From Siphonodentalium dalli (lineage: Eukaryota; Mollusca; Scaphopoda; Gadilida; Siphonodentaliidae), in assembly GCA_032622095.1 (NCBI GenBank), contig CP136067.1:93548707-93612706 (forward strand): a stretch of 64,000 nt of DNA, written 5' to 3'. The notes under the pieces were generated by a model. That model did not search any database, was not told the DNA's origin, and was given only the letters and a program-made list of their open reading frames with translations. The position numbers and the translations under genes were made by a program. Positions 3,301-63,048 of the stretch are shown here, in pieces (the stretch's first letter is position 1; every line of letters begins with the position of its first letter).

Positions 3301-6300
3301 TGGAGCTTCTTGAAATTTTGTGAAAACCCTGGGCCAATGCATTCTCTTATATATGCGAGTCGTCCATGGGGCACCTCGCATATATAAGAGAATGCATTGG
3401 CCTAACAATATTTACCTTGATATTGTAAGCCAGTGCATTCTCTTATATATGCGAGGCTCCCTATGGGAGACTCACATATATAAGGATATGCACATGGTGT
3501 ATAATGGAGTTGCCGTCATGAGAGAGTTAACATTTATGCTACTATACGTCCGTACTGAGTATGTATGTAAAATGTCACACACTGTGTGCTTTATGTCCGT
3601 ACTGAGTATGGACCCACTTCAGCTAGCAGTTCATAACTGGAACTCAGAGATTGATGCAGCTGAAACATTGTTTTAAACAGTGAATGATGTTACAGGATTG
3701 TGAATGATAATAGCCTTTTAACTGAGTCAGTTTTAGGGTTTTCGTGATACTCCCATTATAGTTTTCCACTGGAAAATGGCCATAGCATCAACAGCCCAGC
3801 ACATGACGTAATGACTCTTTATAATACTTCAGATGGGTACTTAACTATTATGTGTATGCCCTCAGTCTTTATTTGCTTATGTATAGCTGACTCTTGCTTC
3901 AGATGGGTACTATGTGTACATCGAGGCTTCATCGCCAAGGCGTCCAGGAGATAAGGCACAACTTGTCAGTCCTGTCGTTGTTGGCGCCGCAACACAGTGC
4001 GTTGTTTTCTACTACCACATGTTTGGAGCTCACATCAACGCATTAAACGTCTACTTGGCAACTGGTGCAAATCTCGGCAAAGTCGTCTGGACTCGGAATG
4101 GTAACCAAGGCAACAAGTGGATAAGAGGCAATGTACAGATCCCAGGTGGAATAGCGTCTCAGTCAGTCAATCGCGTAAGTTTTTAGATGAACAGCGTCTC
4201 AGTCAGTCTCGTAAGTTTTTAGATGAATGGCATCTCTCTCTGTCAGTATCGTAAGTTTGTAGATAATCGCATCTCAGTCAGTCAGTATCATAAGTTTGTA
4301 GATGAATGGGTCTCAGTCTGTCAGTCTCGTAAGTTTGTAGATAAACGGCATCTCAGTCAGTTAATATCGTAAGTTTGTAGATGACCAGTGTCTATGTCAG
4401 TCAATTGCATAAGTTTGTAGATGAACGGCATGGCATCTCAGTCAGTCAATCATGTAATTTTGTAGATGGACATCATCTCAGTCGGTCAATCACTTAAATT
4501 TGTAGATGGACCGGCGTCTCAGTCAGTCAATCTCGTGTGGGGTGCCATCACTAAATTCACCTTCTGGGGACCTCATTCTGCAAATGACCAGCACCATATT
4601 GTCAGGCCTGTTTAAAGACACTCTTTATTTTAGGTTGTGTTTGAGGCTCTTAGAGGGAGAAGTTACTTGGGAGACATCGCTATTGATGATGTCAGCATTT
4701 CATCTGGAAGTTGTTCAGGAGGTGAGGCTAATATAAAATACAGTAATGCCCTAATTAATCGACTCCTTAACCACAGCAGAATTATGGGTAATTTTTCAGG
4801 ATTTAGTCGGAAATATGGCTTGTTGCCATTCACCGGAAAGCTCAGTGAGAGCTTTCCGATGAATGGCAACAAGCCATATTTCCGACTAAATCCTGAAAAA
4901 TTACCCATAATTCTGCTGTGGTTAAGGAGTTGATTAATTAGGGCATTACTGTACATCTCTTAATCCTTAACCCTTTCATGACTGGAGCAACCTGAAAGTT
5001 TGCAACAACCCTGTGAAAATTTATTCTCTTATATATATGAGTCTCCCATAGGGAGCCTCGCATATATAAGAGAATTCATTGGCCTAACAATATTGACTTT
5101 GTCAGCCAGTGCATTCTCTTATATATGCGAGGCTCCCTATGGGAGACTCGCATATTGTGAGAGCTTTCCGATGAATGGCAACAAGCCATATTTCCGACTA
5201 AATCCTGAAAAATTACCCATAATTCTGCTGTGGTTAAGGAGTTGATTAATTAGGGCATTACTGTACATCTCTTAATCCTTAACCCTTTCATGACTGGAGC
5301 AACCTGAAAGTTTGCAACAACCCTGTGAAAATTTATTCTCTTATATATATGAGTCTCCCATAGGGAGCCTCGCATATATAAGAGAATTCATTGGCCTAAC
5401 AATATTGACTTTGTCAGCCAGTGCATTCTCTTATATATGCGAGGCTCCCTATGGGAGACTCGCATATTGTAAGAGAATGCACTGGTTTACTGAATTTTTC
5501 AAAAGCCCTATGACAATGCATTATCTGAAATATGCGATTCTCCCATACGGAGAGAGAATGCCTATGGACTAACAATATTGACCTTGTAAGCCAGTGCATT
5601 CTCTTCTATATGCGAGGCTCCCTTTGGGAGACTCGCATATATAAGAGGGATGCACTGGCACAGGATCTTCAATGCTGCACCAGTGCAACTCCCGTCATGT
5701 TTGTTTACTAATAAAATTAATTTAAGTTGCTAATTTCCCTATGGGAGACTCGTATATGTAAGAGAATGCACTGGCACAGGATCTTCAATGCAGCACCAGT
5801 GTAGCTCCCATCATGAAAGGGCTATATTCTCTTTGGAATGAAGAACACTGTTCATATTTTGTGTCTGGGTAGGAAAACGGATACAAATACTTTTATGTTG
5901 CCCACAACACTCAGCGATTCCATTATAATTTTATATATATTTTTGCAGTGACGACACCCACACCACCCAGCGGTTCCACAAACGCACCAGTCTCGGTTAT
6001 TGACTGCACATTCGAAAGCAGCACTTGCCATTATACCCAGGATAAACAGGATGTTTTTGATTGGACAAGGAGAAGTTCTCGCACAAGTTCAGGAGGAACT
6101 GGACCCTCAGCAGATCACACTTATGGAACGTCATCAGGTCAGTTTTACGCATACTTTGGGTTGTGTTTTAATATGACAAAGTAAATCTAATGTTGTTATA
6201 TCCAAGGAATGAAATTTGGAGCCCAAAATACAGGTCGTTAGAATTTGGGTTCCGCCCACCAATTTTATGGCCCTTTGTTCAGGAATTACCATGGGTGTAT

Positions 6301-9300: not shown

Positions 9301-12300
9301 TGTAATAATACAACTTAATCAGAATGTATGTAAATTATACAACTGAAAAATCGCACATGTAATGTTATTTTCTTTCAAAATATGTACAATGAAATTTCTC
9401 AATGCCTTACAACAACAAACTTGTATCCTACTTTGAGGACCTACACTATACACTGGCTGCTAGCAAATTTGAATTGAAATTTTATTTGATATCAATATCG
9501 GGCTTTTCGATAACGGATTTTGAGTCTGCAGATTCACAATGCTTTCAATTTTGTCATGTTATTCATTTGCCTGACAATTGACCATCTCTATTTTAGGAGA
9601 CTGTACCTTCGAATCTGGACTTTGTGGGTGGAGTCAATCAACTGTTGATAATTTTGATTGGATAAGAGTTACCGGAAGTCGAGGAAAAATGTCAACTGAT
9701 CACACAACTGGAAAAGGAACTGGTGAGTTATCTTGGTGTCTTTCTTCATTCTACAATAACTGCTTCAACTGAAGGACTCGTGGCAGTTTAACCCTTCTAT
9801 ACTTAATGAATTCTCCCATTTAGTTATGATAGTATACACTGGAATGGTCTATTATTCCTCTGTAGGGATGTTCAGAAAATATGAGCAGACGACAGAGAAT
9901 AGAAAGTGCATCAGGAATCCTATTCATTGGTGGGAATGTTCAGATAATAACTTCAACGACCAACCTATGTTTGTTTGTTGTACTTATTATCTAAACATTT
10001 CCTATGGGAACCACTCATCAATGTCTGTTTAGTATAGACAGGGTTGTACTGTGTATGTTTATGATTTGATTATAGGATGAAAATAGGACTAAAGGGATTT
10101 AATCATTATCGTTTCTAGAGTTACAGTAATGCCCTAAATAATCGACTCCTTAACCACAGCAGAATTATGGGTAACTTTTCAGGATTTAGTCGGAAATATG
10201 GCTTGTTGCCATTCATCGGAAAGCTCTCAGTGAGAGCTTAGATTTCCGATGAATGGCAACAAGCCATATTTCCGACTAAATGCTGAAAAGTTACCCATAA
10301 TTCTGCTGTGGTTAAGGAGTCGATTATGTAGGGCATTACTGTATCTTACTTTTATTCAGGTCACGCAAAGTCAATTTGCTGTTTCTCAGGCCAAAAGTTT
10401 TTTAAAGCATGTGCTGTCTAATATTTTCTTATTTCTGGGGCGCACACAGCATTTCATATTTGCATCGGCTATCTCTGGGTTAAACCCTTCCATGACTGGA
10501 GCTTCCTAAAATTCTTCTAAAACCCTGTGCCAATGCATTCTCTTATATATGTGAGTCTCCCATATATTTATAAGAGAATGCATTGACCTAACAATATTTA
10601 TCTTGATCCTGAAAGCCATGCATTCTCTTACATATGCGAGGCTCCCTATGGGAGATTCGCATCTAAAAGAAAATGCACTGGCACAGGGTATTTAATGCTA
10701 CACCAGCACAGCTCCCGTGATGAAAGGGTTAACATTTTTGGTTTGATCATCTTACAGGTCACTACATATATTCCTACTCGACGCCTGTCATACAGCGGGG
10801 CCAGAAAGCCGACCTCATCTCTCCATCGATGAGTCCAACCAGCAGCAGTGGCGTGTGTGTTTCATTCTTCTACGTCATGTCAGGGGTCATGGGGTCACGA
10901 CTCAACATCTTATTAAACCAGGTATGATTTATATGCCGGGGGGGGGGGGGGGGGGGGGGGGGTCATGGGGTCACGACTCAACATCATATTAAACCAGATA
11001 TGATTTATATGCCAGGGGGAGGGTCATGGGGTCACAACTTAACATTAAATCAGGTATGATTTATATGCCAAGGGGAGGGGCCATGGTGTCACAAGACAAC
11101 ATCATAATAAACGAGTATGATTTACAATTTGGGGGGGCATGGGGTCACAACTGAACATCATATTAAACCAGGTATGATTTATATGATATTTGGGGGGTCA
11201 TGGGCACACAACTCGACATAATAAACCAGTTATGATATATATGCCGGGGAGGGGGTCGGTCACAACTTGACATCATGATAAACCATGTATGATTTATATG
11301 TCGGGGTTGGGGAGGGGGTTACCGGGGTTATGGGTTTACATCACCGATCTGTTCTAAAAATAGCACGTAAACATGTCCCTATTGATTGTATGTATTATAC
11401 CAGAAAATTCAAAATAAAATCAATATGATGACACCCAGCTATCACATTTCCAAGAAGATACAGATGTGTTTTAGAAATGTCCAGGTGCTCCTCAGTTAAC
11501 CCTTTACCCAACAGAACGGCCCTGTGCCAATGCATTCTCTTATATATGCGAGTCGACCATAGGTCGCCTCGCATATATAAGAGAATGCATTGGCTTAACA
11601 CATATTAATTGTTAACAAATGTAAGAAAAAATTATAAAAAATTTTTAGGCCAATGCATTCTCTTATATATGCGAGGCGACCTATGGTCGACTCGCATATA
11701 TAAGAGAATGCATTGGCACAGGGCATAACTGTAACTATCACAATGTGGTCAAGGAGCCGGTTCCAATGATATCCATATTTGTATGGTTCTATTGAGGCAG
11801 ACCGAAGATATTTTAGGCTGTTGAAACTTTATTTGGCCGGTTTGTTGGGTAAAGGGTTAATGGTGCTATACTGGGTAATTATTCTCATTTTAAAAGAAAT
11901 GTTGCAAATGTCAGCTGCATGCGCCTGACACAGAGTGAGATTTTAAGTTGTTCCTGCTAGACTAAGAGTTTGTTCTGAAAAAATGAAAGAAATCCTCTGC
12001 ATCTGGATTCTGGAAGATGTACCCTTGTCAGATGCCAGTATTGGAGACTCCTGAAAAGTCCTCTAATTTCAGTTATATATATTTAGGGCAACACATCCAA
12101 TGTGTTGTGGACGCTGTCCTCCAATAGTGGAAACAATTGGCAGAGTGGACAGGTCTCCTACATCAGTTCCGGACCATACACCATAACATTCGAGGTTATT
12201 AATGGTGGAACTGTGGCAGGCTACATCGCATTTGATGACATCGCATTCAGGGTTGGCCATTGTGCAAGTAAGTGGAATTAATCTCCTTCCATGTCAAATT

Positions 12301-18300: not shown

Positions 18301-21300
18301 TTCTGTGAAGTATCTATAGTCTCAAATTAACATTGTTTTTAATTACTTTTTCCCTTTTTTGATTTATGGCAGGTCATAAATATGGTTGAGGAATGAGGCT
18401 TTCCGTGAGAAACAAACTATTTTATTTATTTGGCCTTGTATAATCAGACTTGGTTGTGTCTATGCAGGTTGTTTTCGAGGGTGTGGTAGGAAGTAGCTTC
18501 CAAAGTGACATCGCCATTGACGACGTGAAAGTGACACCTGGAGCGTGCAGTGGAGCCGGAAACTGTGACTTTGAGAAAGGCACATGCACCTGGATGAACA
18601 CCCCAAGTGGAGATAATTTTGATTGGTTGAGAGGCTCGGGTAGTACCGGATCTGCGTTCACTGGTCCGGGAAATGACCATACGATCGGAAACACTAAAGG
18701 TGAATTTAATTTGCTTCTATTTAGATTAGTATCAAGCCTGAGTTTAGTGTGCCTGTCAGTTGCAGAATGAAGTCCCCAGAGGGTGAATTTAGTGACGCTA
18801 TCCCGCATAGCATGCTAGCATCACCAAGTTCACCCTCATGGGACCTCATTCTGCATGGTCTCATATGCTATGGGAGACATACTCAGATTGAAGTTCCCAA
18901 ATGGTTAATATTGTGATGTCACCCACTGGGAACCTTGATTATGCAATATGTCATCTGCCAATTTGGGGATATAGAGAAACTAAACTAAAAAAGAAATAGA
19001 ATTTATGTGAAGAAATTTCTATAGAATGAGCAGAATGAGGACACCAGAGAGTGAATTTAGTGATGCTAGCCTACTATGGGTGATAGCGTCACTAAATTCA
19101 CCCTCTGGGGACCTCATTCTGCAAATGACAGGATCTTCAGGGTAACCTCTAGATGGAGTCGTCAAATATTTCCGAATTTAAAAAAAATACTTGGCTGCCA
19201 GTGGCCATATTTTAATTGATTGACACACCTTGTTAATATGGCTCTCCAGTTGACCTTTAGTATTACTTATTTAAACTTTCTGCATTCCTTTTTCGTATTG
19301 ATTGTTAATCTGCAGCAATGTTGTTTCCTTTGATTCCTTAACCACAGCAGAATTATGGGTAATTTTTCAGGATTTAGTCGGAAATATGGCTTGTTTCCTT
19401 CCATTCATCGAAAAGCTCGCAGTGAGAGCTTTCCGATGAATGGTAACAAGCCATATTTCCGACTAAATCCTGAAAAGTTACCCATAATTCTGCTGTGGTT
19501 AAGGAGTCGATTATTTAGGGCACTACCGTATTTGATTGGAACCAATGTTGGCTTGTGTATTTTGTGGAAGCTTTTGGTGCCTGACCAGTAACTGAAGTTT
19601 GGGTTATTTGATCATAATCAAAGTCGTCATATGCGTTTCTCTGCCAAAAATACAGCTAAAGTATGAATTTGGGTTTGGTGCAATGATTTTTGTTATAGCC
19701 AGCATTATCCATCTTCATCCACAATTTTGGTCCGAGACCGTCGAATTATTGCCAGGCCACCAAAAATTACATATCTCGCGAAATAAAAAATTTCAAAAAT
19801 AGATATATCTGATTATTCTGAGCTTTGAAGAGTGGGTTCCTCAACTCGAATCAAATATCTTTTTACTCCCGATGCCAAGAAATAGTAATTTGGGAGCGAT
19901 AATTCCGATTATGCATCTTTAACTGACAAGCCTTGAAATAGGGTGTCTGTCATTTGCAGAATGAGGTCCCCAGAGGGTGAATTTAGTGATGCTACCCCGC
20001 ATAGCGGGCTAGCATCACCAAATTCACCCTCTGGGGACCTCATTCTGCTTACACCTCAGCAGAATGAGGTTCCCAGATGATTAATTTGGTGATGCTAGCC
20101 CGCTATGTGGGGTAGCATCACTAAATTCACCCTCTGGGGACCTCATTCTGCAAATGACAGACACCCTATTTCAAGGCTTGTTAACTGATTTGATAAAAAA
20201 TATTTATGGAGAAATGCCTCTGTGAATGTCTTGTTTACTCATTCTCTTATTCTATTGCAGGACACTATATGTTCATTGAGACATCTGCACCTCGGGTGAA
20301 GGGAGATAAGGCATGGCTTATGAGTCAGACATTCCTGCCAACGTCATCTGGCTCATGTATGACATTCTGGTATAACATGAAAGGCCGCAGTATTGGTAAG
20401 AAATATATCATCCATGGTACTCATTTTAAGATTCACTGCAATATCTTACTGGTATAGCATGGATGGTACCAATTTTATTTTTATTGTTTTCCTCCCACCT
20501 CCCCTACCTTTGAGTAAAAAAAAATTGGTAAATCAAGTAATAAAAAATAAAATAACCCATGAAACATAACAAAAATCAATCATTTGTCACCCACAGCTCT
20601 GAATTAAGAAACTAGAATAATTTTCCCATAAGAAAACGATGGTTGCTCAAATGAACTCTCTCTCTATGGTGGGCACATTGATCCATGCTCTGTTAATTTT
20701 CAGGCACCCTGAATGTTTACATGTCAGGAGTTACTTCCGGTTCACAGCCGAAGATGATATGGACACTCTCAGGTCAACATGGTTCAGCATGGCTTCAGGG
20801 ACAAGCTCCAATCCCGCATGTTACATATGCCTATACAGTAAGTAGAAATGATTCGATCCCGCATGCACATTAGGATCCTCTTTTAAGCCTATGATCTAAG
20901 GTCCACTTTTAAGCCTGTGATCTAGGGTCCTCTTTTAAGTCTGTAATCTAGGGTCCTCTTTAAGCATCATATAATGATATAATGGCCTGTGGTCTAATGT
21001 CCTCTTTTATTCCTGTGATATAAGGTCCTCATTTATGCATATGATATGTAAGGTCCTCTTTTAAGCCTATGGTCTAAGGTCCTCTTTTAAGCCTGTGTCA
21101 TTAAAGTCCCCGTTTAAGCCAGTGATTAAATGCCCCCCTTAAGCCTGTAATCTAGGGTCATCGTTTAAGCCTGTGCCCATAAAGTCCTTTTTTAAGCCTG
21201 TGATCTAAACTCCTTTTTTAAGCCTATGGTCTAAAGTCCTCTTTTAAATGGGTTATCTCTTTTAAGCCCGTGTCCTCACGTCCTCCCTTAAACCTGTGAT

Positions 21301-24300
21301 CTAAGGTCCCCTTTTAAGCATGTGATCTAAGGTCCTCTTTTAATCATGTGATCTAAGGTCTTCTTTTAAGCCTGTAATCTAAAGTAATCTTTTAAGCCTG
21401 TGATATAAGGTCCTATTTTAAACCTGTGATCTAAGGTCCTCTTTTAAGCCGATGATATAAGGTCCACTTTTAAGCCTGATCTAAAGTCCTCGTTTAAGCC
21501 TGTGATCTAAGGTCATCTTTTAAGCCAGTGATCTAAAGTAATCTTTTAAGCCTGTGATCTAAGGTCATCTTTTAAGCCGACTATCTAAGGTCCTCTTTTA
21601 AGCCGACAGTCTAAAGTAATCCTTTAAGCCTGTGATTTAAGATCCTCTTTTAAGCCTTATCTAAGGTCCTCTTTTAAACCTGTGATCTAAGCCGATGATC
21701 TAAGGTCGACTTTTAAGCCTGATCTAAATTCCTATTTTAAGCCGATGATTTAAGGTCCACTTTTAAGTCTGATATAAAGTCCTCTTTCAAGTCAATGATC
21801 CAAGGTCCTCTTTTAAGCTTATGGCATAAAGTCCTCTTTTAAGCCTGAGATATACGGTCCTCTTTTAAGCATGGGATATAAGGTCCTCTTTAAGCCTGTG
21901 ATCTAAGGTCCTCTTTTAAGCCAGTAATCTAAGGTCCTCGTTTAAGCATGTGATCTAAGGTCTTTTAAGCCTGTGATCTAAGGTCCTCTTTTAAGCCTAT
22001 GATCTAGAGTCCTCTTTTAAGTCTGATCTATTGTCCGTGTTTAAGCCTGTGCTCTAGGTCCTCTTTTAAGCCTGTGATCTAGAGTCCTCTTCTAAATCTA
22101 ATCTAGCATCCTCTTTTAAAGGTACGGTTGGCCTTGGCGGTGGGTATCCTGTGAAAATATTTCCACCCGTCAAAAACCGCAACAAACAGAAAGAACATCA
22201 AAATATAGACAGACTTTGTCCGTATATAAATAAGAAATATCGCATAAACAGTATGTTATTCTCACATGTTTAACCATTGTTATGTAAACAAAAGCATAAA
22301 AAGTTACTTTTCTGGCGTTTGTTTATATTATGATGGTAAACATAAAGAGCGTTCTTTGTTGGTGTATTCCTGATATGGAACTAATAAAGAGCGTTTATGC
22401 CATTTGTGTGTGATTAGCCAGTAGTATTGTGCTGTCCTCTGTAAACCAATCAGGCTATTGCTTAGGTAAAATATAGTAGGTATTTATGATAACATGCTGT
22501 TTCCGTGATGGTCATGGTATATATGAACGAAACTGTATGCGTTTTAATGTTTTCCTGTTTACGGTGTTTGGAACAAATATGAATATTTTCGACAATTAAG
22601 GCCGCACGTGCCTTTAAGCCTGTGATCTTTGGTTCTCTTTTAAACCTGTGATCAAAACTCCTCTTTTGAGCCTATGGTCTAAGTTCCTCTTTTAAGCCTG
22701 TGATCTATGGTCCCCTTTTAAGCATGTGATCTAATGTCCTCTTTTAAGCCTGTGATCTAAAGTAATATTTTAAGCCTGTTATCTAAGGTCCTCTTTTAAG
22801 CCTGTGATATAAGGTCCTCTTTTTAGCCAGTGATCTAAGGTCCCCTTTTAAGCTGTGGTCTAAGGTACTCTTTTAAGCCTGTGATCTAAGGTCCTCTTTT
22901 AAGCCGATGATCTAAGGTCCACTGCTAAGCCTGATCTAAAGTCCTCTTTTAAGCCTGTGATCTAAGGTCCTCTTTTAAACCTGTGATCGAATGTCCTCTT
23001 ATAAGACTGTGATCTAATGTTCTTCTTTAAGCCTGTGATCTAAGGTCCTCTTTTATGACTGTGATCTAAGGTCCTCTTTTAACCTGTGATCTAATGTCCT
23101 CTTTTAAGCTTGTGATCTAACGTAATCGTTTAAGCCTGTGATCTAAGGTCCTCTTTTAAGCCTGTGATATAATGTCCTCTTTTAAGCCGATGATCTAAGG
23201 TCACTGTTAAGCCTGATCTAAAGTCCTCTTTTAAGCCTGTGGTCTAAGGTCCTCTTTTAAGCTGATGATCTAAGGTCCACTGTTAAGCCTGATCTAAAGT
23301 CCTCTTTTAAGCCTGTGAGCTAAGGTCCTCTTTTAAGCCTGTGGCCGATTGTCCTCTTTTAAGCTTGTGAGCTAAGGTCCTCTTAAGCCTGTGATCGAAT
23401 GTCCTCTTTTAAGCCTGTGATCTAAGGTCCTCTTTTAAGCTTGTGATTTAATAATGTCCTCTTTTAAGCCTGTGATCGAACATCATCCTCTTTTAAGCTT
23501 TTAAGTTCTCTTTTGAGCCTGAGATCTAAAGTTCTCTTTTAAGCCTGTGATATAAAGTCCTCTTTTATGATGTAATAATCGCACAGTAATAAATGTAAAA
23601 TCATAAGATACATATATTTTTATAATTATATAAAAGAAGGATTTGCTATGATTTTCTTACCTTTCATGATTTTTTCAGATCCGCATTGAGGGAGTTCGTG
23701 GCGTGAGTTACCAAGGCGACATCGCGATTGATGACATTCTGTTTAACCCACAGTCCTGTGGATGTAAGTTGTCTTCCATCATTATACCCCTATGACTGAA
23801 GGAAATGGTGGGTATACTGGATTACATGTGTCCGATCTGATCGTCGTCCATCCATCCGGGCAGATATCTCAACCACCGGTAGTCAATTCTCAATCAAATT
23901 TGGTATGGATGTTTACCACTATGCAGACACTTAATGGAGTGTTCAATCGTTTTGTTCATATTTTTCGTTTTAGAGTTATTCATCTTTGTTTATCTGGAAA
24001 TGTTTGTTTTCGGTCTGTCTGAGCAGATATCTCAGCCGCAGGTTGTCAGATCTCCAAGAAATTTGGTGTGGATGTTCACCACTATTCATCTTTGTATGCC
24101 ACATCGGGGTATGCACCAGGCTACAGCCCAGCTTTTGTTCGAAATAATTGCTGCTACCTATGAGATTTTATTTCCATATTTACAATATAGATATTGAAAT
24201 GACGTCACCTTATCAGAATATTTGGCAAAATTTCTTGAGAATGCCCCAAACCTGTACTAAAAAGGGAAAATATCTTGAGATTGCTCATTTTAGCATTGGT

Positions 24301-27300
24301 CAAATTAGGATGGAAATTTGTTGAATCACTATCGGTCTTCTGATTTCCGCTTAACTTCTAATGATTTTCAGCATCCATGTAATCAACTCAGTCTTTACTG
24401 TGAATCAAGGTTAATGCTAAGAGATTATGTTTTGTTTACAGACCAGCCATCCCAAGCTAATCCAGCCAATGCTTCAACAACACTGGCACCTATCACCACG
24501 CCAACACCCAAACCATTCCGTAAGTATATTACCACACCAACACCCAAAACACTCCGTAAGTATATTACCATGACAACACCCCAACCATTCCATAAGTATA
24601 TTACTGACAACAATGACACCATTTCGTAAGTATATTACTCATAACACCCAAACCATTCTGTAAGTATATTACTGACAACAATTCATATGTATATCCTTTT
24701 GTGGCTGGAATTCTTGCAAAAACAATGTGCCAATGTATTCTCTTATATATGAGTCTCTCGTATGGAGCCTTTGCATATATAAGAGAATGCGTTGGCCTAA
24801 CAAAATTTGCCTTGATCTTGTAAGCCAGTGTATACTCTTCTAAATTTGAGGCTCCCTATGGGAGACTCGCAGAAATGAGAGAATGTGCCGGCACAGGATC
24901 TTTAATGCTGCACCAGCATCGCTCCCATCTTAAAAGGGATATTACAGACAACAACACCAGTTCAAAAGTATGTCACTGATCACAGCAACTCCATTTCATG
25001 AGCATACTTCTGTCAGTTATCAAAGAACTTGTGAGCCTGACATTTCACATTTTAAAAGTTATTCTTATCTGTCATAATAGCATGAAAATTCCGGCCAGAA
25101 TACTAACGTCAGCAAAAACAAGGAAGCAGTAGAAGTTTTCTGCATCAACATAATGTGCCCTACTACAGCTGAAAGGGTCATTGGTGCCGCTTTTTTGTGT
25201 GTTGAGTATCCAGCTTAATGAAAAGGTGTTTTGGGTAACCAGCTTGACCTTTGCTGTTTCCAGCACACCTTTGATACCAAAATCTTGTATCCGATCACAT
25301 GGAGCATTGATAGTTATCATTAATATTGTTATTCCTGTCTCAGATTTTCTTTTTATCAGCAACATAATCCGAGAAAAGGTGATAATTTCTATAGCATAAA
25401 TCCACAAAGGTCAAACTGGGTACCCGAAATACTATTAGCCTCAATGACTCATTCAGCGTGACTGTGCCATAGCCAGAAGAAATTTTCGCCCCCCCTCAGC
25501 CACTCAAAATTATTGGTGGTGCTATTCAATGTGTTGTATACTAAAAATGTATTTATAAACAAAATTTGCAGATAATATGTTGAATTTACGTGTCATCTCA
25601 TTTAATTGATTGTGTTAACAATGTTTGATTTTCTTGTATATTAACCCTTCCATGATGGGAGCTTCCTGAAGTTTTTCGAAAACCCTGTTCCAATCCATTC
25701 TCTTATATATGCGAGTATCCGGTAGGGAATCTTGCATATATAAAATAATGCATTGTCCTAATAATATTTACCTTAACCTTATATGCCAGTGCATTCTCAT
25801 ATATATGCGAGGCTGCTTATGGGAGACTAGCATCTATAAGAGAATGTACTAGCACAGGATCTTTAATGCTGCACCAGCGCAGCTCCCATCATGAAAGGGA
25901 TAATAACTGAGGCCATATTTAAAGTTTAATATTTAACCCACAGGGAGCCTCACATAGATGGCAGCATGCACTACAGAGTATCGTCTGCTGCAGTCTATGT
26001 GGGGCTTTCTATGGGTCATGAAAGGGTTAAGTCTTATTTTTTTTTAGCCTTTATTTTAAATTTTCAGACTCTCAGTCCACTTATGACTGTGACTTCGAAA
26101 CTAACATCTGTACGTGGACACAGGCACATAATGACCAATTTGATTGGACGAGAGCCCAAGGTCCAACTGGCAGTAGGCAGACAGGTCCGACTACAGATCA
26201 CACCAAAGGAAACAGTCAGTATAAAGAGATTTAATTTAGTACATTATCATACAGTAATGCTCTAAGTAATCGACTTCTTAACCACAGCAGAATTATGGGT
26301 AACTTTTCAGGATTTAGTCGGAAATATGGCTTGTTGCCATTCATCGGAAAGCTCTCCCATAAATATAACACTTTTTTTCTTATAAATTACCTTGCAATCT
26401 TCATGCAAAAATAAAGTGTTCTGGTCCCTGAAGTAGTATTTCCATTGGTATCATACAGATAGAACTACACAAGTGTGTGAACTGGTTAGCAGTTATTGCA
26501 CGAGTTTCTTCTCACATGATGGGGAAATTGAGAATCATAGGTAAGAGTTTTACCTCGCAGCATGACAAACTGGTGCAATAACGTTAACATGTTCACACAA
26601 CTGTGTTGTTCTATGTTTATTGCACACTCTGAGGATCCTAGTTTGTAGTATACTGAAATTTAGATCCAAATTGCTTTTAATATAATTGAACAAACTTGTG
26701 ATTTATGTGTATTTGGACTGTACCTCATATGTGGACAATACCTTATAATTTAGTCCAACATTTGCTGTTACAGTTGACATCATCAATGACATCCTCAACA
26801 TAATCAGTTTAAGGATAAGACAAATATTTTATTGAATGTTTTGAAATCTGTATTTAACTGTAATTTGCCAAAATAAATAAATTGGTGTGCAATAAAAGTC
26901 TTCCGAGGCATTTGAAATCTGTATATCACACATCAATGGTACCTATTATGATCATACTGTAATATAAAACTGGGCTTTATCACACCAGAACCAGGCAAGG
27001 ATGTAACAAAAATAAGAAATATTAGGTATGATTGGATGATTCTAACTAATGGATCAGAAGTATATGGCTATTTTATCACCAACATGATATTGTTATTTGA
27101 CTATTGATTTTGATGACTTATACATCAATTGGACGCCTCATTATGTATAGGATATTCCCCGAGCTGTCGGGCATTCGGAGAAATAATTCACCGAGGCGAA
27201 GCCGAGGTGATTATTTGGACGAATGGCCGACAGCGAGGGGAATATCTGGCTTAATCCTCAGTATTTAAAGAATAACAAGACGAAATTTCATTTTACCTAT

Positions 27301-42300: not shown

Positions 42301-45300
42301 TTCGATCAATCTGTCAGTGTATAGAAGTGTGATGCTGAATTACATACTGTATAATTTTACAACAATCCGCATAAATTAGTTGGTGATTAAACTAGTTTTA
42401 TGAAGAAACTATATTAAAAACACTAAAATAGTAAAAGTGATACTTGTGTCTGGACTTTATCTGCTCTTTTAAATGGAAAATGGGAAATTCTGTCGAGAAT
42501 AAATTGGGCGACCGACCGGAAGTTCACACACACAATTCGATCTCTGTTTCCAACTTTCCAACTACACAAAATCAAGACACCACACCCTTAAACTATTAAA
42601 CTGTACTTGCTGGTGTAAATTCACTTATTTCCGGTGTTCCAAAACTTCCCCACTGAATTTGCGGTCTCTGGTGACAAACTTGAAAGGTCATGGCCACTGT
42701 CATGTCATATTAGTATTGGCACGAAGCAGGATAAATGCTAATAATAATGGTGGAATAGTTATGTAACATATTTCTTTATCCCCAACTAAAGTATCGCATT
42801 TCATAGTTTCACTGATCAGTCTAATTTGTTAATGTATCACTGCGTATTGTGATGCTGAAAACGACATTTACCTCGGTTGATAGAGATTGTCGCTACCAAG
42901 CGTATCTAAGGGCCTTGACCAATCAAATGCACGAATTTAAATGAAAGCGAAAGTAGCTGTAATTATATGGTGATTCATCATGTAAATTGATTTTTTCCAA
43001 TGTCATTTCAGATTTTGGCTCTTCTACACAACTGCCTCGTATAATCACCTAATTACCCACGGCCCCTCCTTAATAGAGCAACTTTTTCGCAGAGTTGATC
43101 AGCGTAAAGAATTAATTAATCAACATTTATTGGGACTTATATGGCCAACAAATTGTAGACAATGGAATCAGTTGGAACAATGTTCCTTGAATCACTGAAT
43201 ACCGCTGGAGATGCAACTTTGTCTGAAATGTTTTTCTCAGAAATGATCAACTGCGAATCTGTTGAGAGATTGGTAACATTTTTAGTAAGATTATTGCCAT
43301 TTTTCAACTTATTTTTGCAACATATATTATTTGTCTGAGCTTCAATTATTGGTTAATTGTTTTAAAACTTGGCACAGCTGTTACCACTATTTTAAACTGC
43401 CATTGTGAAGCGTGTCAAACTCATTTTGGCAGAGTTAATGTTTAGAAAGTTTTTACTATAGGTACCCTATTTGTAACTGAAGTGGACATATGGGAGGTGT
43501 CCTTTGTCCCATTGGAACATTACAGTTTCAGTTGGAAGAATATAGTATATAAATGTATTCTTTCCATACAGGTAACTGTGACTTTGAGAAAGGGATGTGC
43601 ACTTGGACCAATGTCAATGGCGACAATTTTGATTGGATTAGTGGACGAGGAAAAACAAGCAGCGGACTAACTGGACCATCATCCGACCACACACTCGGGA
43701 CATCAGCAGGTATGATTCACCTTCCTCATGCAACCATATAGTTGTGACATTTGTAAATAGAATTACCTCCCTTATAATTCGACCACACTCGGGAGATCAG
43801 CAGGTGCAATTACTCTTCTTTATGGGACCAGACAGTCATGACATTAACAAATAATATTACCTTGCTTATCATCCGACCACACACTCGGTACATCAGCAGG
43901 TGTGATTACCTTTCTTTTGCAACCACACAGTCGTGACATTAGCAAATCATTAGCTAATAGAATTACCTCTCTTGTCATCCGACCACACAATCGGGACATC
44001 AGCAGGAAATTATACCTTCCTCATGCGACCACACAGTCATAATATTAGCAAATAGATTACCTCCCTTATCATCTGACCACACACTCGTGACAACAGCAGG
44101 TGAGAATTCCTTTCTTTATGTGACCACACAGTCAATATATTACTGCGATCTCACTAATTATCATTCGACGACACACTCGGGACATCAGCTAATAGAATTA
44201 CCTCCCCTATTATTCAACCCCACACACACTAGGGACATCAAGCTATAGAATTACCTCCCTTATTGTTCGACCCCACACACGCTAGGGACATCAACCAATA
44301 GAATTACCTCCCTTATTATCCGACCCACACACACCAGGGCCATCAACCAATAGAATTACCTCCCTTATTATCCAACCACACAGTCATGTTATCAGTCAAT
44401 GATACCTCCTTTTAAAGATTTTGATCAGCTGGACACATTTTAACCCTGTCATGACTGGAGCTTCCTGAAATTTTGCGAAAACCCTGTGCCACTGCATTCT
44501 GGAGCCTGGCATATATAACAGAATGCATTGGCCTAACAAAATTTACTTTGACCTTGTAAGCCTGTGCATTCTCTTATATTATATGCGTGGCTCCCTATAG
44601 GAGACTCGCATATATAAGAGAATGCACTGGCACAGGATCTTGAATGCTGCACCAGCGCAGCTCCCGTCATGAAAGGGTTAAGTGATTGGAGCATTGATTC
44701 ACGGGGTTGCAGTGAACAACGGGTTATTATATTCCCTCACTTTTTTGATGAAGCTTATGTTTAATAATCATAATGAAAGACATCGTGAAAGTTGATTAGT
44801 ACATGTATTCCATTACAAAATATCCCAAGAATTAGATTTCTTTCTTGACTGCAGCTGTTGAGTGATAATTCATAAAAGACATTATAAATTTAAATAGGTT
44901 TTAGAACTCAATTATGCCATAAATGTTATACTTGATGAAGCGGTGTGGGAATGGGTTAGGCATGTGGAATTAAAACTAGACTGACTTATGTTTCACTCTC
45001 TGTTTATTTTCAGGTCATTATATGTTCATTGAGTCATCTGCACCTCGTCGTCAAGGCGATAAAGCCATACTTCAGAGCCAATTGTTTCAACCGACTGCCG
45101 GAAACTGCTTGACATTCTGGTTCCACATGTACGGATCGAGTATCGGCAAGCTATCAGTCCAGGTCAAGGACACTGTTACAAACAAGACAATCGTAATGTG
45201 GAGTCTGCAGGGGGCACAGGGGAACAACTGGCTGAACGGGAAAATTCCCATCTCCGAGATTCATCCATTCTATGTGAGTAAACAAACCTACCTTAGGCCG

Positions 45301-51300: not shown

Positions 51301-54300
51301 CCATTTTCCAGTGGGAAAATATAACGGGAATATCACAAGAACCATAAAACTGACTCGGTTGAAAGGCTATTATCGTTCACAATCGTGGAACATCATACAC
51401 TGTTTGAAACTTTGAGATACAGTTATTCCGATGCACCATTCTCTGAGTTCCAGTTATGAATAATGGCCAATTGCTAGTGTGCTGAAGTAGGTCCGTAGTA
51501 CCTATGGACCATTATGCACATGGTGTGCATTTTTACGTCCGTAATAGTTACGGACGTCATTGCAGCGAAGAGGTTAACACCGCGCAACGTGGTAATACCT
51601 CACACAAATACAGGTCTGAAGTCTGTGTCGATGTTAATTGCTGTTCCACGTTCCACCAGATGTCGGTGGAATATCGAGTCTCCCATAACCGTGACTCGGT
51701 TAAATTAAGTCATACAGTAATGCCCTAATTAATCGACTCCATAATCACAGCAAATTATGGGTAATTTTTCAGGATTTAGTCGGAAATATGGCTTGTTGAA
51801 TGGCAACAAGCCATATTTCCGACTAAATCCTGAAAAATTACCCATAATTCTGCTGTGGTTATGGAGTCGATTAATTAGGGCATTACTGTATGTGTTTCTT
51901 GTGTCCATTGACCAAGGTCAATCTTACTGTGACAGCCTTGTCTTACCTAGCATATTATATGTGCGTGTACATGTCTTGTCGATCTAGTGAAGCATTTTTA
52001 AAATGGCAAATCAGCATGTTCGTGCATCCGAGAATACGCAGATCAAGTTTGAATTTGGTCACAAACCGATTATTATAACAATTATGCGCCTCTTTAGAAA
52101 TTCAAATTTTTAGGTTGTCCGAATGATAATATGAGTAATGTTCAACAGAATTTCTTCATGTATTGTTTATAATTCAGATTTGAGATGATGCAGTTCAAAT
52201 TCAGATTTGGTTGCGGTCTTATGATTTTTGTCCGAGTTATGCCCCCATTTTTAAGATTAGAATTCACAAATTGTTTTTTGTTATTGCAGCATATGCTTGT
52301 GACTTTGAAGATAGTAGTCTGTGTGGCTATACACAGAGCAAGCTGGATAAATTTGATTGGTCGAGATCAACAAGTAATACGGGAAGTCAAGGAACAGGCC
52401 CTCAAAATGATCACACATACGGAACTCCAAGAGGTCAGTTAAGTTATGCTGTCATTTATTCATAATAATAGCAAGCCTTGAAGTAGTGTTTCTGACATTT
52501 GCAGAATGAGGTTCCCAGAGGGTGAATTTAGTGAGGCTGTCCCGCATGTCAGGCTAGCATCACCAAATTCACCCTCATTCTGCTTAAAACTCAACTGCTA
52601 TGGGAGACCTAGGATCAGATTTAAGTTCCCAAGTTGAAGTTGGTGATGTTCACCCATTAGTCACCTCGATTATGAATTTTATCTTCTGCAAATTAGGGGA
52701 TATAGAAACTTCTCAGAAGGGTAAAAGTAAATAAAACAGTGTTAATTTGAGAGTATACATACTTACCAGAAGATGAGGCCTAAGCAGAATAAGGTCACCA
52801 GAGGGTGAATTTTGTGATGCCAGCCCATAGTGCATTGTATCATCACTAAATTCACTAAATGGGGACCTCATTCTGTAAATGTCAGACACACTATTTTCTT
52901 GCTTCAATAATAGATAAACTACATTGTAGAGTAAGATCATGTAAAATGATCAAGAAACCCTAAATAATTCATTTTCGTTGTTCAAATCCTATACATGTAT
53001 TTCTAACAAAAAATATTGAAAAAAAATTTTTAGTGACGAGAGAGATGCATGAGAACACTGAAATTAAAATATTTTTATGTTGGCTCTAAACGTGATTTAT
53101 ATTCACAGGTCACTACATGTTTATTGAATCAAGTACACCGAGGAAGCAGCGAGATAATGCCGTCCTAATCAGTCCATCGTATCCGGCAACCGTCGGAATG
53201 TGTCTCCAGTTTTACTATCACATGCATGGAATAAACATGGGCACACTCAACGTCTATCAAGTGACAGGCATTACCAAATCTAAGATCTGGTCCAAGACTG
53301 GTAACATGCCAGATAAGTGGCTGAATGGCCAGGCTACATTACGGAGCTCCGGAAACTTCACCCTGCAGTTTGAGGGAATTGTGGGAAATGGTTGGAGATC
53401 AGACGCAGCTATTGACGACATCAAATTAATACCCGGTATCTGCAGTATTCCAGGTGAGAGGAAATTTTTAATCCTGAATATGATTTAGAAAATTTCTTGT
53501 TTTGCTAAACTAAAGCAAAATGATGAAAATAATTAAACTTATTTTTATCTGCCTGTTCTAATAAAAACAGGACGCATTAGGCCAAACAAAATTAATGTTT
53601 TGTTTCACGGGCATTTTTTTTTAAAAATTCAGTGCAGGCGGGCGGGTTTTATTTTAATTTATTATTTCCTGATAGCATACCACCTAATGCCTACATTGCG
53701 GCATGTCGGTAACATTGTATTGTCTGTAAACATTTTATTTTAGTCTATTTCCAAGGAAACTTCTAAAATAAGTTGGCATTTGCATGGGGCCCAAACATTG
53801 TCTCAAAAGTCCTATTTTTTTCTTTAATTTGCTTTGGTTTTTCTATTTAGTATAGAAAGGGCTAAACTGAAGGCTGAGATTGAATACGAAATTTAATTGA
53901 TATTTTCCTGACACTGACAGCTACATTTTGAATATACTTCAAATTGATTATGAATTCTCTTGCAAACAGGTGACTGTGATTTTGAACATGGACTGTGTGC
54001 TAGTTGGAGCAACACTCAAAAGGGGGATAACTTTGATTGGGTGATTGGTAGCGGTAGTACGCACAGCGTCTTTACAGGTCCATCACAAGATCACACAACG
54101 CAGAGCAATAACGGTGAGTCAAACAAATATCATCTATTGACAAGCCTTAAAATAGTGCGTCTCACATTTGCAGAATGAGGTTCCCAGAGGAAAATTTAGT
54201 GATGCTACCCCACATAGCATCACTAGTATATACCATCGGGCTAGCATAACTAATTCACCCTCTGGGGACCTCATTCTGCTTAGGCCTCATCTTCTCTGGA

Positions 54301-57300
54301 AAGTTTCTTTATTATCAAATTGCTATAGAAACTTCTTCACATAGATTCTATTTCTTTTTTAACCCTTTGAGTGCCAGGTCCGATTTTTGTATCAACCCAT
54401 ATACCCTGTGCCAATGCATTCTCTTATATATGCGAGTCGACCTATGGTTGACTCGCATATATAAGAGAATGCATTGGCCTAACAATTTTTTTTTTACAAT
54501 TTTAATAATTTATTCTTATATTCTTTAACAAACTTATTTTGTAGGTTTAGGGGCGATGAGATCGGCCCCTGGCACTCAAAGGGTTAAGTGGGTATAACTG
54601 GGTGGGCGAATCTCTTTAGTATAGAAAGACTGAAATTTTTGACATAAAAACTTGGGACTGAGCTTACCTTCGATGACCGTCCCATCCCGTCCCTCCTCCG
54701 AATGCAAAATCTCAGTTTGCTTTCATAGTGCTAATATGTGTTTTATATGAATCATGATGTATATTATTTTATTTAATGAAAATAATTTGTTTTGTGTTTC
54801 ATTAATATGCTAGATAAATATTCAAAATAAGACACAATAATCATCTTATATATATTGTAATACAGAATTTTGTGAAACACAATGGAACAGGTCATATTAA
54901 TAAGTTTGCAATGCAAATTAGCTGGAGTAATACTAATTTTGTGCATGAATTTTTGTCATCTTCATTCAGAGTTAACTTGACATCAATGTATACACGCCCT
55001 GTAATTTCAAAAAATGGGGTGGATCACCCCATGACTTTTTTGGGAGCAAAAACATAAACTGGGCTTATCGTCAGGGATGGACTTACTGACGAGTGCATAC
55101 AGTATTAGTGATGAGTGCAACTCGATGGCTGATAAATGTTTTATTTCCAGGAAAATACATCTTCGTTGAGTCCAGTGCACCACGTCGTCCTGGCGACCGG
55201 GCATGGCTTGTCAGTCAGACCTTCCCACCGACGTCAACTAAATGTGTCAGATTCTGGTACAACATGCTAGGGAAGGGCATCGGGTCGCTGAACGTGTATG
55301 TGAAAATTGGATCGACTAACAAAACCATGTGGTCTCTGTCGGGTAACCAGAATAATAATTGGCAGAATGGGCAGTTCCCGATCAACAGCAAAGGGCAATC
55401 TTATCAGGTATGTATCAGATTACTTGTTGACTTGAGATAAACAGTCCCCCCATCGGGAGACCCGCACACAGAGAAGCTGACTACATTCAACATCTTGTTT
55501 TTGTGAGGTTATAATAAAAAAGTTAGAGAATATAAATACTGGTATGGTGATTAGGTATAAATACATGTTTCTGATTCCATCAGGTTATAATAAAAAAGTT
55601 AGAGAATATAAATACTGGTATGGTGATTAGGTATAAATACATGTTTCTGATTCCATCACGTTATAATAAAAAAGTTAGAGAATATAAATACTGGTATGGT
55701 GATTAGGTATAAATACATGTTTCTGATTCCATCAGGTTATAATAAAAAAGTTAGAGAATATAAATACTGGTATGGTGATTAGGTATAAATACATGTTTCT
55801 GATTCCTTCAGGTTATAATAAAAAAGTTAAGAGAATATAAATACTGGTATGGTGATTAGGTATAAATACATGTTTCTGATTCCTTCAGGTTATAATAAAA
55901 AAGTTAAGAGAATATAAATACTGGTATGGTGATTAGGTATAAATACATGTTTCTGATTCCATCATGTTATAATAAAAAAGTTAGAGAATATAAATACTGG
56001 TATGGTGATTTAGGTATAAATACGTGTTTCTGCTTCCTTCAGGTCATAATGGAAGGTGTGAGAGGCTCCAACTATCAAGGGGATATCGCTGTCGATGATA
56101 TCAGCTTCACAAACAGCATGTGTGCACGTGAGTTCATCCATCATGAGGCCTTTCATTATTTGGTTAACCCTTCCAGAAATTTTGCAATAATCATATGCCA
56201 AAGCATTCTCTTATATATGCGGGTCTCCCATAGGGAGCCTCGCATATATATAGAGAATACATTGGCCGAACAATATTTACCTTAACCTTGTAAGCCAGTG
56301 CATTCTCTTATATATGCGAGGCTCCCTATGGAAGACTCACATATATAACAGAATGCTCTGGCACATGAGCTTTAATTCTTCACCAGTGCAGCTCTAGTCA
56401 TGAAAAGGTTAATTGTAATGTTTTGTATTTGTTCGACACTCTTGTTTCTTCTATTCCTTTTATATGGTTGTGAGGGGATATACGAACAATGACATTGTTG
56501 ACAACTTACGTAGAAAATTTGTTAAACAATTCCTCGGACTAAAACCTAGCACCCCTGATTTCATGGTGTATGGCGAAAGCAGTCGACTGCCACTTAGTAT
56601 ACAGATTGACGTACGAATGATTAAGTTTTGTTTCAAAATTATAATTAATAATGGCTGAGTTAGGTATGTGCTATATTAGTAGAATCTAGTCAATCACACT
56701 TTATTGATTACAAGATGTTGCTTGATAGATAATTCTATTTTATTCTTGTCAACCAGTATTGATAATCATACCAGAGGCACCATCTATAGAAAAAAGAAAA
56801 TTATTGAAAAAATATTTAATAATTATGTTTTCAATAATTTTCTTTTGGTCGTGTTTTCTTCAGCTTTCTCTCAATATAATCTCTATTTTTTAGTTTCTCC
56901 ACCAATAGCCGATCCAAGCAAACAGACGACAGTAACCACTCCAGGAACGACAGCCAGACCATCAATAGGACCCACACCACGTAATTGCATGTTGTGATCC
57001 TTTATTAACCCTTCCATGACTGGAATTTTGTAAAAACCCTGTGCCAATGTTATAAGTTACAAGATGCTTAGTTGTCGGATATGGTGTCATGTGAGGCGAA
57101 GTGAGATCAATATTAGTCTCGGCCATATTGATCTCACTTCGCCTCACATGACACCATATCCGACCACTAATCGTCCCGTAACGTATTTATTATGTCAGTG
57201 GACAAAATCCATCATATCCCTTTAATTAATCGTCACTGTAATTTATTTTAATTTGGTATGTTAAATGTATCGTCTATGGCTATTAACTTATGTAGCGTCA

Positions 57301-60300
57301 CAGTGACGTGCCATGGGCGTTGAACGTCAATGCATTGAGTCAATGGCTAATCACTAGAAGTAGGACAACTTGTTGAGTTTGATAGTTAATTTATGAGTTT
57401 TTAGAATTTCTCAAATATATCGCATGCAGGTTTCGGTACATGGTACTATGTCTTTAAATTTGCAGAAAATGATTTCCGACAGATATCACTTTTCTTGGTG
57501 CCAAAATACACCAAAAATATCCCTGAGGCGACAGGGGGTGGGTCGCGCACAAAAATTCCATATATGAGGCGGGGGTGGGTGGGTCATTTCACTTGGAAAA
57601 AATGCGTAAATGACCAAAAATGCAAATTTTTTCCTCCACTTAAAATCACTGCTTTTGTGCTCATGTAATCTTTTAATATCAACCATATGACACACTATGC
57701 TATTTAAAACATACTAACCAGAACTAACTACCATTTAGGGGTGTATGTATGCTGATGTATGTCAAAATTAATGTACCAGATTTCGACGGATGAAAGATAT
57801 ATTATATAAGCATAATTATGAAATGATTACCATCTTCTGTTCTTAATCCACTTAATGGATATTATTTGTTATCAAGATAAACTTGATGATACAAACAAAA
57901 ATAACAGTTCCACTATATTCCACTGGTTTAAAACTATAAAACAAAATAACTCATACAAAAAGTTCATACTATTTGGATAACAATATGAAAACTTAGCCTT
58001 TTGTGATATTAAATCAACCACAGTTATTATTCACAAGTCTAAGCAGTTAGGTACTGTACATATACATGTAATAAGGTAGTATATCTTGGAGTTCCAGTTA
58101 TTTGACTGCCAATACATATGGTATTGTAATTATTAGTTGTTTGTTCATTATTGGTTGCTTTGATATTCAATTTAGGATATAGCAGGATAGAGCAATGTAA
58201 CTATAAAAGTAGCTTTTGGTATTAAAGTCTCAACTTATTCCATATGCAACATAAAGCTAGAATATAAACATGACTAATATGAACTTTGTTCTTGAAACTA
58301 ATTATAAATCATACTAACCTGGATCAAACTGCACAGGTAATCTATGCAACTCTCTTCATGCGAACTTTCTCAGAGTCACATATCTCAACTGAACAGTCTG
58401 ATCCAGGATGCTTGTTCTTATAATGGGTTTCCATGTGATACGTCCAGTAAACCACATTGCACAGGGGGAACCTACATGTATACAGACGGTTTGTACAAGG
58501 TGACCGTGGCTTGGATATCTCTGCTGGCTTTAAACTAAACTTTATACTCTGATAATAAGTTAATAATACTACCAATTTTTCGCTAATATTGGTATATGTC
58601 AATCTGCAAACCAACATGACATACATACATGTATTTAGACTGAGCTGCTGTGAGTGTGACTTTCCTTGGCTTGGGTCCCAGATGAAATTTGTTCTACCCC
58701 TATTACTACAGTATTACTATTGGGCCTTGACTCTAAAACATCTTATACTATTGTTATATAAAAGAATATGGAGTTATTGAGGATATCAGGAAATGTATTA
58801 CCTCGTAATTATTATGTTTTATGGCATTATGCCCAATGTTTTTAAGTGCATGCGTTCAGCATTTCCACATTTTATACTAATATAATTATCTCCCTTTAGA
58901 GCAGTTTAGAGGTTTACTAAAATGCTGGGAATAGTATTAAATAATAAGAAATGGAACAATTCTTTGCTAGGCTTTGATTTGGTTTATATTTTATGTTTTT
59001 TGTAAGATTTTGGGGGGTGGGTCCCAAAAATTGGGTGGAAAAAAAAGAAAAAAATTGCAGGTAGAGGGGTGGTGGGTCCCCGAAAGGGGCAAAAACATTT
59101 TTTTCGCCCTATATATGTAAATTTTTTCCGCGACCCCCCCCCCCTGGAGGCGACAGATTTTTCTGAAAATATTTATTTCATATGGGGTCACTGACCTAAT
59201 ATGGGTTCATACACCATCGCTATTTGTTGATGCTGATTGGCTAATCGCAAGAGCCGACATAATGAATTCTCTTATATAGCCTTGCATGTATAAGAGAATT
59301 GACCTAACAACATTTACCTTGACCTTTGTAAGCCAGTGCATTCTCCAATATATGTGAGACTCCCTTATATAGGCTCACTATTGGAGACTTTCATATATAG
59401 GAGATTGCATTTGCACATGATCTTTCATGCTGCACCAGTGCCGCTCCTGTCTTGAACTCTCAGAGCTTTCCGATGAATGGCAACAAGCCATATTTCCCAC
59501 TAAATCCTGAAAAATTACCAATAATTCTGTTGTGGTTAAGGAGTCGATTAGTTAGGGCATTAATGTATCTCATTTTGTGGGTGGAGGAAAGACTTGTAAG
59601 GGAAGAAACCACATACAGCTATAATTAATCTAATTAATCGACCCTCCTTAACAGTATTACCACAGTACTCAACCAAGTTCATGTGATCAACCATGTCAAT
59701 TATACCGCTGCCGACCACGGTGTCATGTTGCATTCATGGTTAGACCAACTTAGACTGTATTCTTCATGCGATGTTTATATGAATTTTATTGTTTATTTTT
59801 AAGTTGACATTGTAACAACACCAGAGAATTTGTCATTTTTGACATGGAGTGATGCTGAATTGATGAAATAATTGATTAATGTCTGCCAGTGAATTTATGA
59901 AATTTTGTTTTGTGTTTAGATAACTCGCTGTTTTTGAAGTCGCAAACAAAATTTAACATGGCAGCAATTTACTTTGTTATCGCAGTTAAAAATATTAATG
60001 TGGTACGATTACTGGTGGATACCGGATATTGACCACTAGCATTCGGGTGGTACCACTTGACTGCGGTCATTAGGCCACAGGAAGTTGATTCTCTGTTTCT
60101 CAGACACTTTTTTTCCCAAAGCAGGCAGGCAGGCAGATTTTTATATTTATTTTTTATGGCCAAAATTTACCGGCAGGCAGGTTTTTATTACCATATTTTA
60201 TGACCAAAATTTCCCGGCAGGCAGGTTTTTATTTGTTTATCCTAAAATTGTAAAACCAATGTTCGGACATTGAAACATGACTACTTGATTTGATTTTAAT

Positions 60301-63048: not shown

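Follow-up and report, generated by a model that had tools for sequence, protein, structure and literature searches.

The MAM gene and its exon model

The window analysed here is a stretch of 64,000 nucleotides (C7:93548707-93612706) from a genome of 2.2 Gb in 9 contigs. It reads as lying inside one giant MAM gene, with LDLa domains further downstream, and the MAM matches of this gene span C7 ~93.42 to 93.80 Mb. Gene-wide analysis covered C7:93400001-93600000 joined to the window, a sequence of 212,706 bp (212.7 kb) that represents part of the gene. Positions marked "gene" refer to this joined sequence and those marked "window" to the 64,000-nt stretch. A MAM profile (a home-made HMM) was built from uninterrupted MAM domains of the same gene and returned 102 sense-strand and 0 antisense matches in the 212.7 kb at E<0.01. 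Exons were called by combining this profile with splice-site scores and rules on phase (MAM exons A, B, and C; intron phases 1, 0, and 1). The resulting model contains 91 MAM exons with 172 edges across the 212.7 kb, all of them predicted from the home-made HMM and a hand-written splice matrix and not derived from RNA.

Four merged-exon edges and one pseudo-hit were taken out of the model, and eleven profile matches without a clear exon type were excluded from the exon list. Nine of these are copies inside arrays and the other two (gene 116912 and 169409) are probably real exons, the edges of which are uncounted. The acceptor at window 56043 (gene 204749) was set by hand to ..CCTTCAG/GTCATAATGG, and the acceptor at gene 142176 was also hand-set. 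Linker edges at gene 81742, 81867, and 173225 were found by eye and are counted separately from the MAM edges.

Two regions beyond the window have further features of note. Directly upstream (C7:93546134-93546915 and 93548124-93548403), a closely similar second copy follows both a MAM B exon and a C exon, with the second B copy having lost its start. As the phases rule out copy-to-copy splicing, the C pair could be mutually exclusive exons. Near the 3' end of the gene (C7:93.743-93.784 Mb), several MAM and LDLa domains lie in single uninterrupted frames of 512-834 codons, whereas most MAM domains in the upstream part are split over three exons. This difference suggests intron loss in the 3' part.

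Tandem arrays in the window

The earlier note described six minisatellites in the window, each seeded on an exon edge, five with a donor and one with an acceptor. TRF and reading of the sequence agree on all six (Table 1). The five donor arrays hold the last 26-39 exon bases and the donor, while the sixth holds the acceptor and 8 exon bases. The accompanying statement that the arrays begin or end exactly at an exon does not hold, as the donor arrays begin inside the exon and run across its edge. The first array is seeded by the tip and donor of the MAM exon B at 3903..4174. The array at 43678..44382 consists of two adjoining groups of TRF rows, with units of 94-106 and 53 bp. The array at 61572..62115 contains 10 further intact donors, each scoring at least as high as the exon's own.

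Table 1. Predicted exons and edge arrays of the window, in window coordinates.
Feature	Position	Strand	Basis
MAM exon type B (MAM positions ~43-130)	3903..4174	+	MAM HMM match 43-123, acceptor/donor scoring
Donor-type array, 40 bp unit x 9.7, donor 4174, 26 exonic bp in first unit	4149..4536	+	TRF, sequence
MAM exon B1 (positions ~43-97)	10758..10921	+	MAM HMM, splice scoring
Donor-type array, ~56 bp unit, donor 10921, 39 exonic bp	10883..11300	+	TRF, sequence
Thr/Pro-rich linker exon, 78 bp, phase 1-1	24442..24519	+	By eye, sequence and splice sites
Donor-type array, 34-36 bp unit x ~5, donor 24519, 29 exonic bp	24491..24680	+	TRF, sequence
MAM exon A (positions 1-45)	43572..43709	+	MAM HMM, splice scoring
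Donor-type array, donor 43709, 32 exonic bp	43678..44382 (43678-44134, continued to 44382)	+	TRF, sequence
Acceptor-type array, 76 bp unit x 7.1, acceptor 56043, ends 8 bp inside exon	55506..56050	+	TRF, sequence
MAM exon C (positions ~131-154)	56043..56127	+	MAM HMM, splice scoring, hand-set acceptor
MAM exon A	61461..61607	+	MAM HMM, splice scoring
Donor-type array, 50 bp unit x 10.9, donor 61607, 36 exonic bp	61572..62115	+	TRF, sequence

The window also harbours repeats of other kinds. A 2.7-kb array with a 26-bp unit (window 20876-23567) fills most of one intron without exon sequence, starting 39 bp past a donor that was read by eye. Two-copy 103-bp TRF rows at window 450-645, 19956-20151, and 30848-31053 appear palindromic (CAGAATGAGGTCCCCAGAGG... 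and GCCAGTGCATTCTC...). These 103-bp elements recur in introns of the gene and, although TRF calls them tandem, they look like hairpin MITEs.

Edge arrays across the gene

TRF identified 101 clusters in the 212.7 kb of gene. The period counts given below leave out seven two-copy hairpin-like clusters, those with a best period <5, and everything upstream of gene position 15,000. Edge arrays number 22 when two on linker exons are included, of which 12 are donor-side and 10 acceptor-side. In these, the six of the window among them, the tandem unit spans the exon-intron boundary, save that the array at gene 139361 only touches its donor. TRF match ranges from 73 to 97% and copy number from about 2 to 92. 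One array (gene 141636-142155) was assigned to the edge class manually, its TRF end being 21 bp short and its unit holding the acceptor and exon start. Three arrays (gene 82686-83145, 83196-83491, and 192877-193088) were counted as non-edge and look like continuations of edge arrays.

The longest array (gene 119726-124618) extends over 4.9 kb, with 92 copies on the donor of an A exon, and an acceptor array at gene 60234-61137 has 22 copies. At gene 57596-58243 the exon tip is matched by the MAM profile eight times in a row, and one intron carries edge arrays at both of its ends (gene 51949-52333 and 52462-52788). The exonic part of the unit can be very short, with just 8 bp of exon in two acceptor arrays and an overlap of only 1 bp with the donor edge at gene 139361.

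The units are mutually unrelated, in agreement with the earlier note. Among 21 edge arrays, a single pair cross-matches at E<=1e-3, its members sharing ~30 bp of homologous MAM exon tip. A genome search with the 53-bp unit of the 92-copy array matched only its own array (42 matches, one candidate scored), which indicates that this array arose locally. Together, the unrelated units and the local 92-copy unit rule out a single spreading satellite.

Excess of arrays at exon edges

Of the arrays with a period of at least 30 bp, 20/44 overlap one of the 172 MAM exon edges in the 212.7 kb, increasing to 22/44 once the two linker-exon arrays are included. Random placement of a founding unit of one period predicts 2.9 MAM edge overlaps among the 44. 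A tandem-repeat scan of the gene against random placement, as the earlier note proposed, hence places edge overlap ~7-fold above chance. Edge overlap was found in 14/27 arrays with at least 2.9 copies and in 6/17 with fewer. Conversely, 0/42 arrays with a period <30 bp overlap a MAM exon edge in the 212.7 kb. No other array with a period of at least 30 bp ends within 100 bp of an edge, while three do so within 150 bp; three arrays of shorter period lie within 100 bp. The observation is therefore real and non-random, and founding duplications in this MAM gene hit exon edges at several times the frequency of randomly placed founding units. For this gene, the ~7-fold excess and the lack of long-period arrays stopping 100 bp or less short of an edge support the proposal that exon-intron borders are favoured starting points of duplication.

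Shuffle tests were run on an exon model predating the last hand corrections, where 12/21 long arrays of the strict class lie on an edge. Exon-sparing random placement predicts 3.1, with the observed number reached in 0/5000 shuffles. When placement is allowed to cover whole exons, 6.3 are expected in this class and 33/5000 shuffles reach 12, and for five looser array classes 204-433/5000 shuffles reach the observed number. The shuffle result thus depends on barring exon-destroying positions. Chance placement is ruled out by the 20/44 overlaps against 2.9 expected together with the exon-sparing shuffles. In the TRF list no array lies wholly inside an annotated exon, which indicates that exon-internal arrays are rare or lost. 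The GC content of edge arrays is 0.364, compared with 0.369 for introns and 0.468 for exons. As edge arrays are intron-like in GC, GC does not drive the excess, and a preference for a certain base composition is ruled out as its cause.

Other MAM loci, a control gene, and genome-wide motifs

At a second MAM locus (C5:255.43 Mb, 19 kb in two pieces), 3/7 arrays straddle edges and a fourth, with a 27-bp base period, abuts an acceptor. A third MAM stretch (C5:52.14 Mb, 5 exon matches) has no edge array. A C7 gene resembling cubilin, read over 24.5 kb in three pieces with 12 CUB exon matches, has 8 arrays, of which 0/8 straddle an edge. Here, arrays lie 24 and ~6 bp outside exon edges, a third lies ~30 bp from an uncertainly placed edge, and two of the 8 have base periods near 21 bp. 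Elsewhere on C7, inverted runs of CUB exon matches occur at 9.69-9.93 Mb (+) and 10.56-10.74 Mb (-), many of them paired with near-equal scores, which would fit two copies of one long cubilin-like gene. A run of numerous myosin-head matches at C4:274.2-275.5 Mb, all close in score, suggests a tandem myosin heavy chain cluster.

Genome-wide, three tandem copies of a donor motif are not in excess over the reversed control. Among the matches listed, AGGTAAGT x3 gave 2253 vs. 2548 for its control and AGGTRAG x3 gave 15,643 vs. 35,025. This is a blunt test as the counts are swollen by long arrays. Within the gene, AGGTRAG x3 marks 3 sense arrays and 0 antisense, with 0 for the control, and AGGTAAGT x3 marks no array. 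The lack of a genome-wide donor-motif excess, along with the lack of edge arrays in the small cubilin control, suggests that the effect is gene- or family-restricted. On these thin controls, the edge excess looks tied to some MAM genes. The earlier note held that its idea would fail if there were no excess genome-wide. This is partly the case, with no surplus of donor-motif arrays by the blunt test and 0/8 in the cubilin-like gene, while the excess within the present gene stands.

Extra splice-site copies

The splice dinucleotide is kept in 176/193 extra copies across 21 arrays. Of these intact extra sites, 90 equal or exceed the functional site in score on a simple home-made matrix. An in-frame, stop-free exon extension is possible from just 3/176, two at gene acceptor 133351 and one at window linker donor 24555 (the second donor, adding 12 codons). 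When scored against the copies' own consensus, GT/AG does not exceed the remaining unit positions in conservation in the 5 of 21 arrays tested. In the 91-copy set, 50% of other positions are as invariant as the splice dinucleotide, and two arrays retain one of the splice bases in no more than 67-78% of copies. When scored against the exon copy instead, dinucleotide identity is above that of other positions in 16/21 arrays. This comparison is discounted, as the exon copy is itself constrained at the dinucleotide.

These arrays provide a natural test of splice-site choice, in which an exon can have as many as 91 additional copies of its donor behind it. On the acceptor side, up to 20 intact acceptor copies precede the exon. 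On either side, use of nearly any of these copies would disrupt the frame.

Comparison with mirages and related repeats

No named process was known to the earlier note for arrays of this kind. This was incorrect, as such structures are already called mirages in amphioxus. In two papers on lancelet genes, mirages are minisatellite-like tandem repeats across exon-intron boundaries (PMC3087553, PMC3902484). They are described in amphioxus Adh3 and, at either boundary, in the globins BflGb6 and BflGb9 (PMC3087553). A further case is lancelet PGBD5, in an account that also refers to Adh and troponin C (PMC3902484). The published units measure 10-160 bp, and AG/GT is kept in many, but not all, copies (PMC3087553, PMC3902484). 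According to the globin authors, mirages apparently leave regular splicing undisturbed, differ in length, and could give rise to new introns (PMC3087553). In amphioxus, unchanged splicing has RT-PCR support. Length and somatic instability are further traits of mirages.

The arrays described here are an unusually rich new example of this known but poorly understood structure. As in mirages, a short segment across the exon-intron boundary is duplicated in tandem, in six cases in the window and 22 gene-wide, and both 5' and 3' boundaries are duplicated, here 12 on the donor side and 10 on the acceptor side. GT/AG is likewise present in many but not all copies, here 176/193 extra ones. The accessible accounts of lancelet globins and PGBD5 have one or two arrays per gene, whereas the present gene has 22 in 212.7 kb with up to 92 copies. 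The arrays resemble ordinary intronic minisatellites in their period, copy number, and decay, but differ in being concentrated on exon edges. They also sit in a 2.2-Gb, 9-contig genome, figures that argue against a lancelet, as lancelet genomes comprise ~0.5 Gb and 19 chromosomes. Searches for mollusc haemocyanin and annelid linker families, the controls of which were likewise silent, gave no match.

In human genes within segmental duplications, internal tandem repeats of the minisatellite type also reach exon-intron boundaries. Half of these lie in coding exons and boundary ones can create new introns (PMC2812944), whereas here almost every copy is intronic and its use would disrupt the frame. 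Intron gain via tandem duplication of AGGT is described for potato RdRp (PMC4974935), and the Rogers model of intron gain by the same duplication is cited in PMC3087553. Splice signals are duplicated in both settings, but the present arrays demonstrate no new intron. A literature search, with subscription papers mostly beyond its reach, found no count of the edge preference of such arrays. The present analysis supplies one for mirage-type arrays, with 22 cases in part of one gene.

Origin of the edge arrays

The arrays are best explained as mirages, with a probability of roughly 0.7, arising from founding duplications biased to exons or their junctions, followed by intronic expansion and silent toleration. 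Initially, slippage, template switching, or microhomology repair would probably have produced a tandem duplication of ~34-130 bp across an exon-intron junction. The array may then expand or shrink by slippage and unequal exchange, as suggested by the copy numbers and TRF match. Selection would hold only the exon-side copy and the other copies would drift inside the intron. Their splice sites would be passed over and the exon spliced as before, for which there is RT-PCR support in amphioxus. Such arrays would be silently tolerated because the exon-side copy keeps working. As founding duplications exceed random expectation on edges, this gene or family shows a duplication bias towards exons or their junctions. 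The 3/7 straddling arrays at the second MAM locus and an anatomy equal to that of published mirages support this explanation. Against it are the few non-MAM controls (12 CUB exon matches, 8 arrays), the third MAM stretch without an edge array, the exon-covering null, and the dinucleotides that are better kept relative to the exon copy in 16/21 arrays. In addition, the 20 edge overlaps include the 1-bp contact at gene 139361 and the manually assigned array at gene 141636.

Neutral tolerance alone, in which duplications arise evenly and those inside exons are removed while intronic or edge-crossing ones survive, would account for the lack of TRF arrays wholly inside annotated exons. However, it predicts ~2.9 edge arrays of 44 where 20 are observed, and intronic arrays hugging an edge should be as common, yet none with a period of at least 30 bp lies within 100 bp. 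It is therefore improbable, and the suggestion of the earlier note that arrays keeping splice sites are tolerated does not by itself make edge arrays more frequent than plain intronic ones. One narrower variant of the preferred explanation, which may be entertained tentatively, is a bias to duplicate whole exons, for example one linked to transcription or chromatin, with purifying selection leaving the border-crossing events in which a functional copy survives. This would explain why edge arrays are common and why edge-adjacent intronic and exon-internal arrays are missing. It fits poorly with GC not being the driver and with arrays that contain very little exon (1 bp at gene 139361 and 8 bp at two acceptors).

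Selection could act on the extra splice sites themselves, retaining them as backup sites or as sites that draw in splicing factors, in a gene of long introns and ~90 small exons. The 176/193 copies that keep the dinucleotide, the 90 sites that match or exceed the functional site on the home-made matrix, and the higher identity to the exon copy in 16/21 arrays are consistent with such a role. Selection is disfavoured by the ordinary conservation of the dinucleotides against the copies' own consensus in five arrays, and splicing at these sites would in nearly every case disrupt the frame or run into a stop, making this role very improbable. An assembly artefact or dispersed satellite is scarcely credible, for although the longest array reaches 4.9 kb, the units are mutually unrelated, one was found only in its own array, TRF match falls to 73%, and the same pattern occurs on another contig at the second locus (C5).

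A stronger version of the junction bias is that MAM-gene junctions in this lineage are true tandem-duplication hot spots, where a junction-linked process feeds intron growth and non-standard intron gain. The splice sites of this gene family would then acquire duplications of 34-130 bp at a rate well beyond that of the genome, with splicing-coupled R-loops, polymerase pausing at splice sites, or RNA-templated repair as candidate processes. This version is considered unlikely. In a comparison chosen after seeing the data, with non-standard MAM introns picked by eye, an edge array was found in 4/8 of these vs. 15-16/~81 standard introns (p 0.06-0.07).
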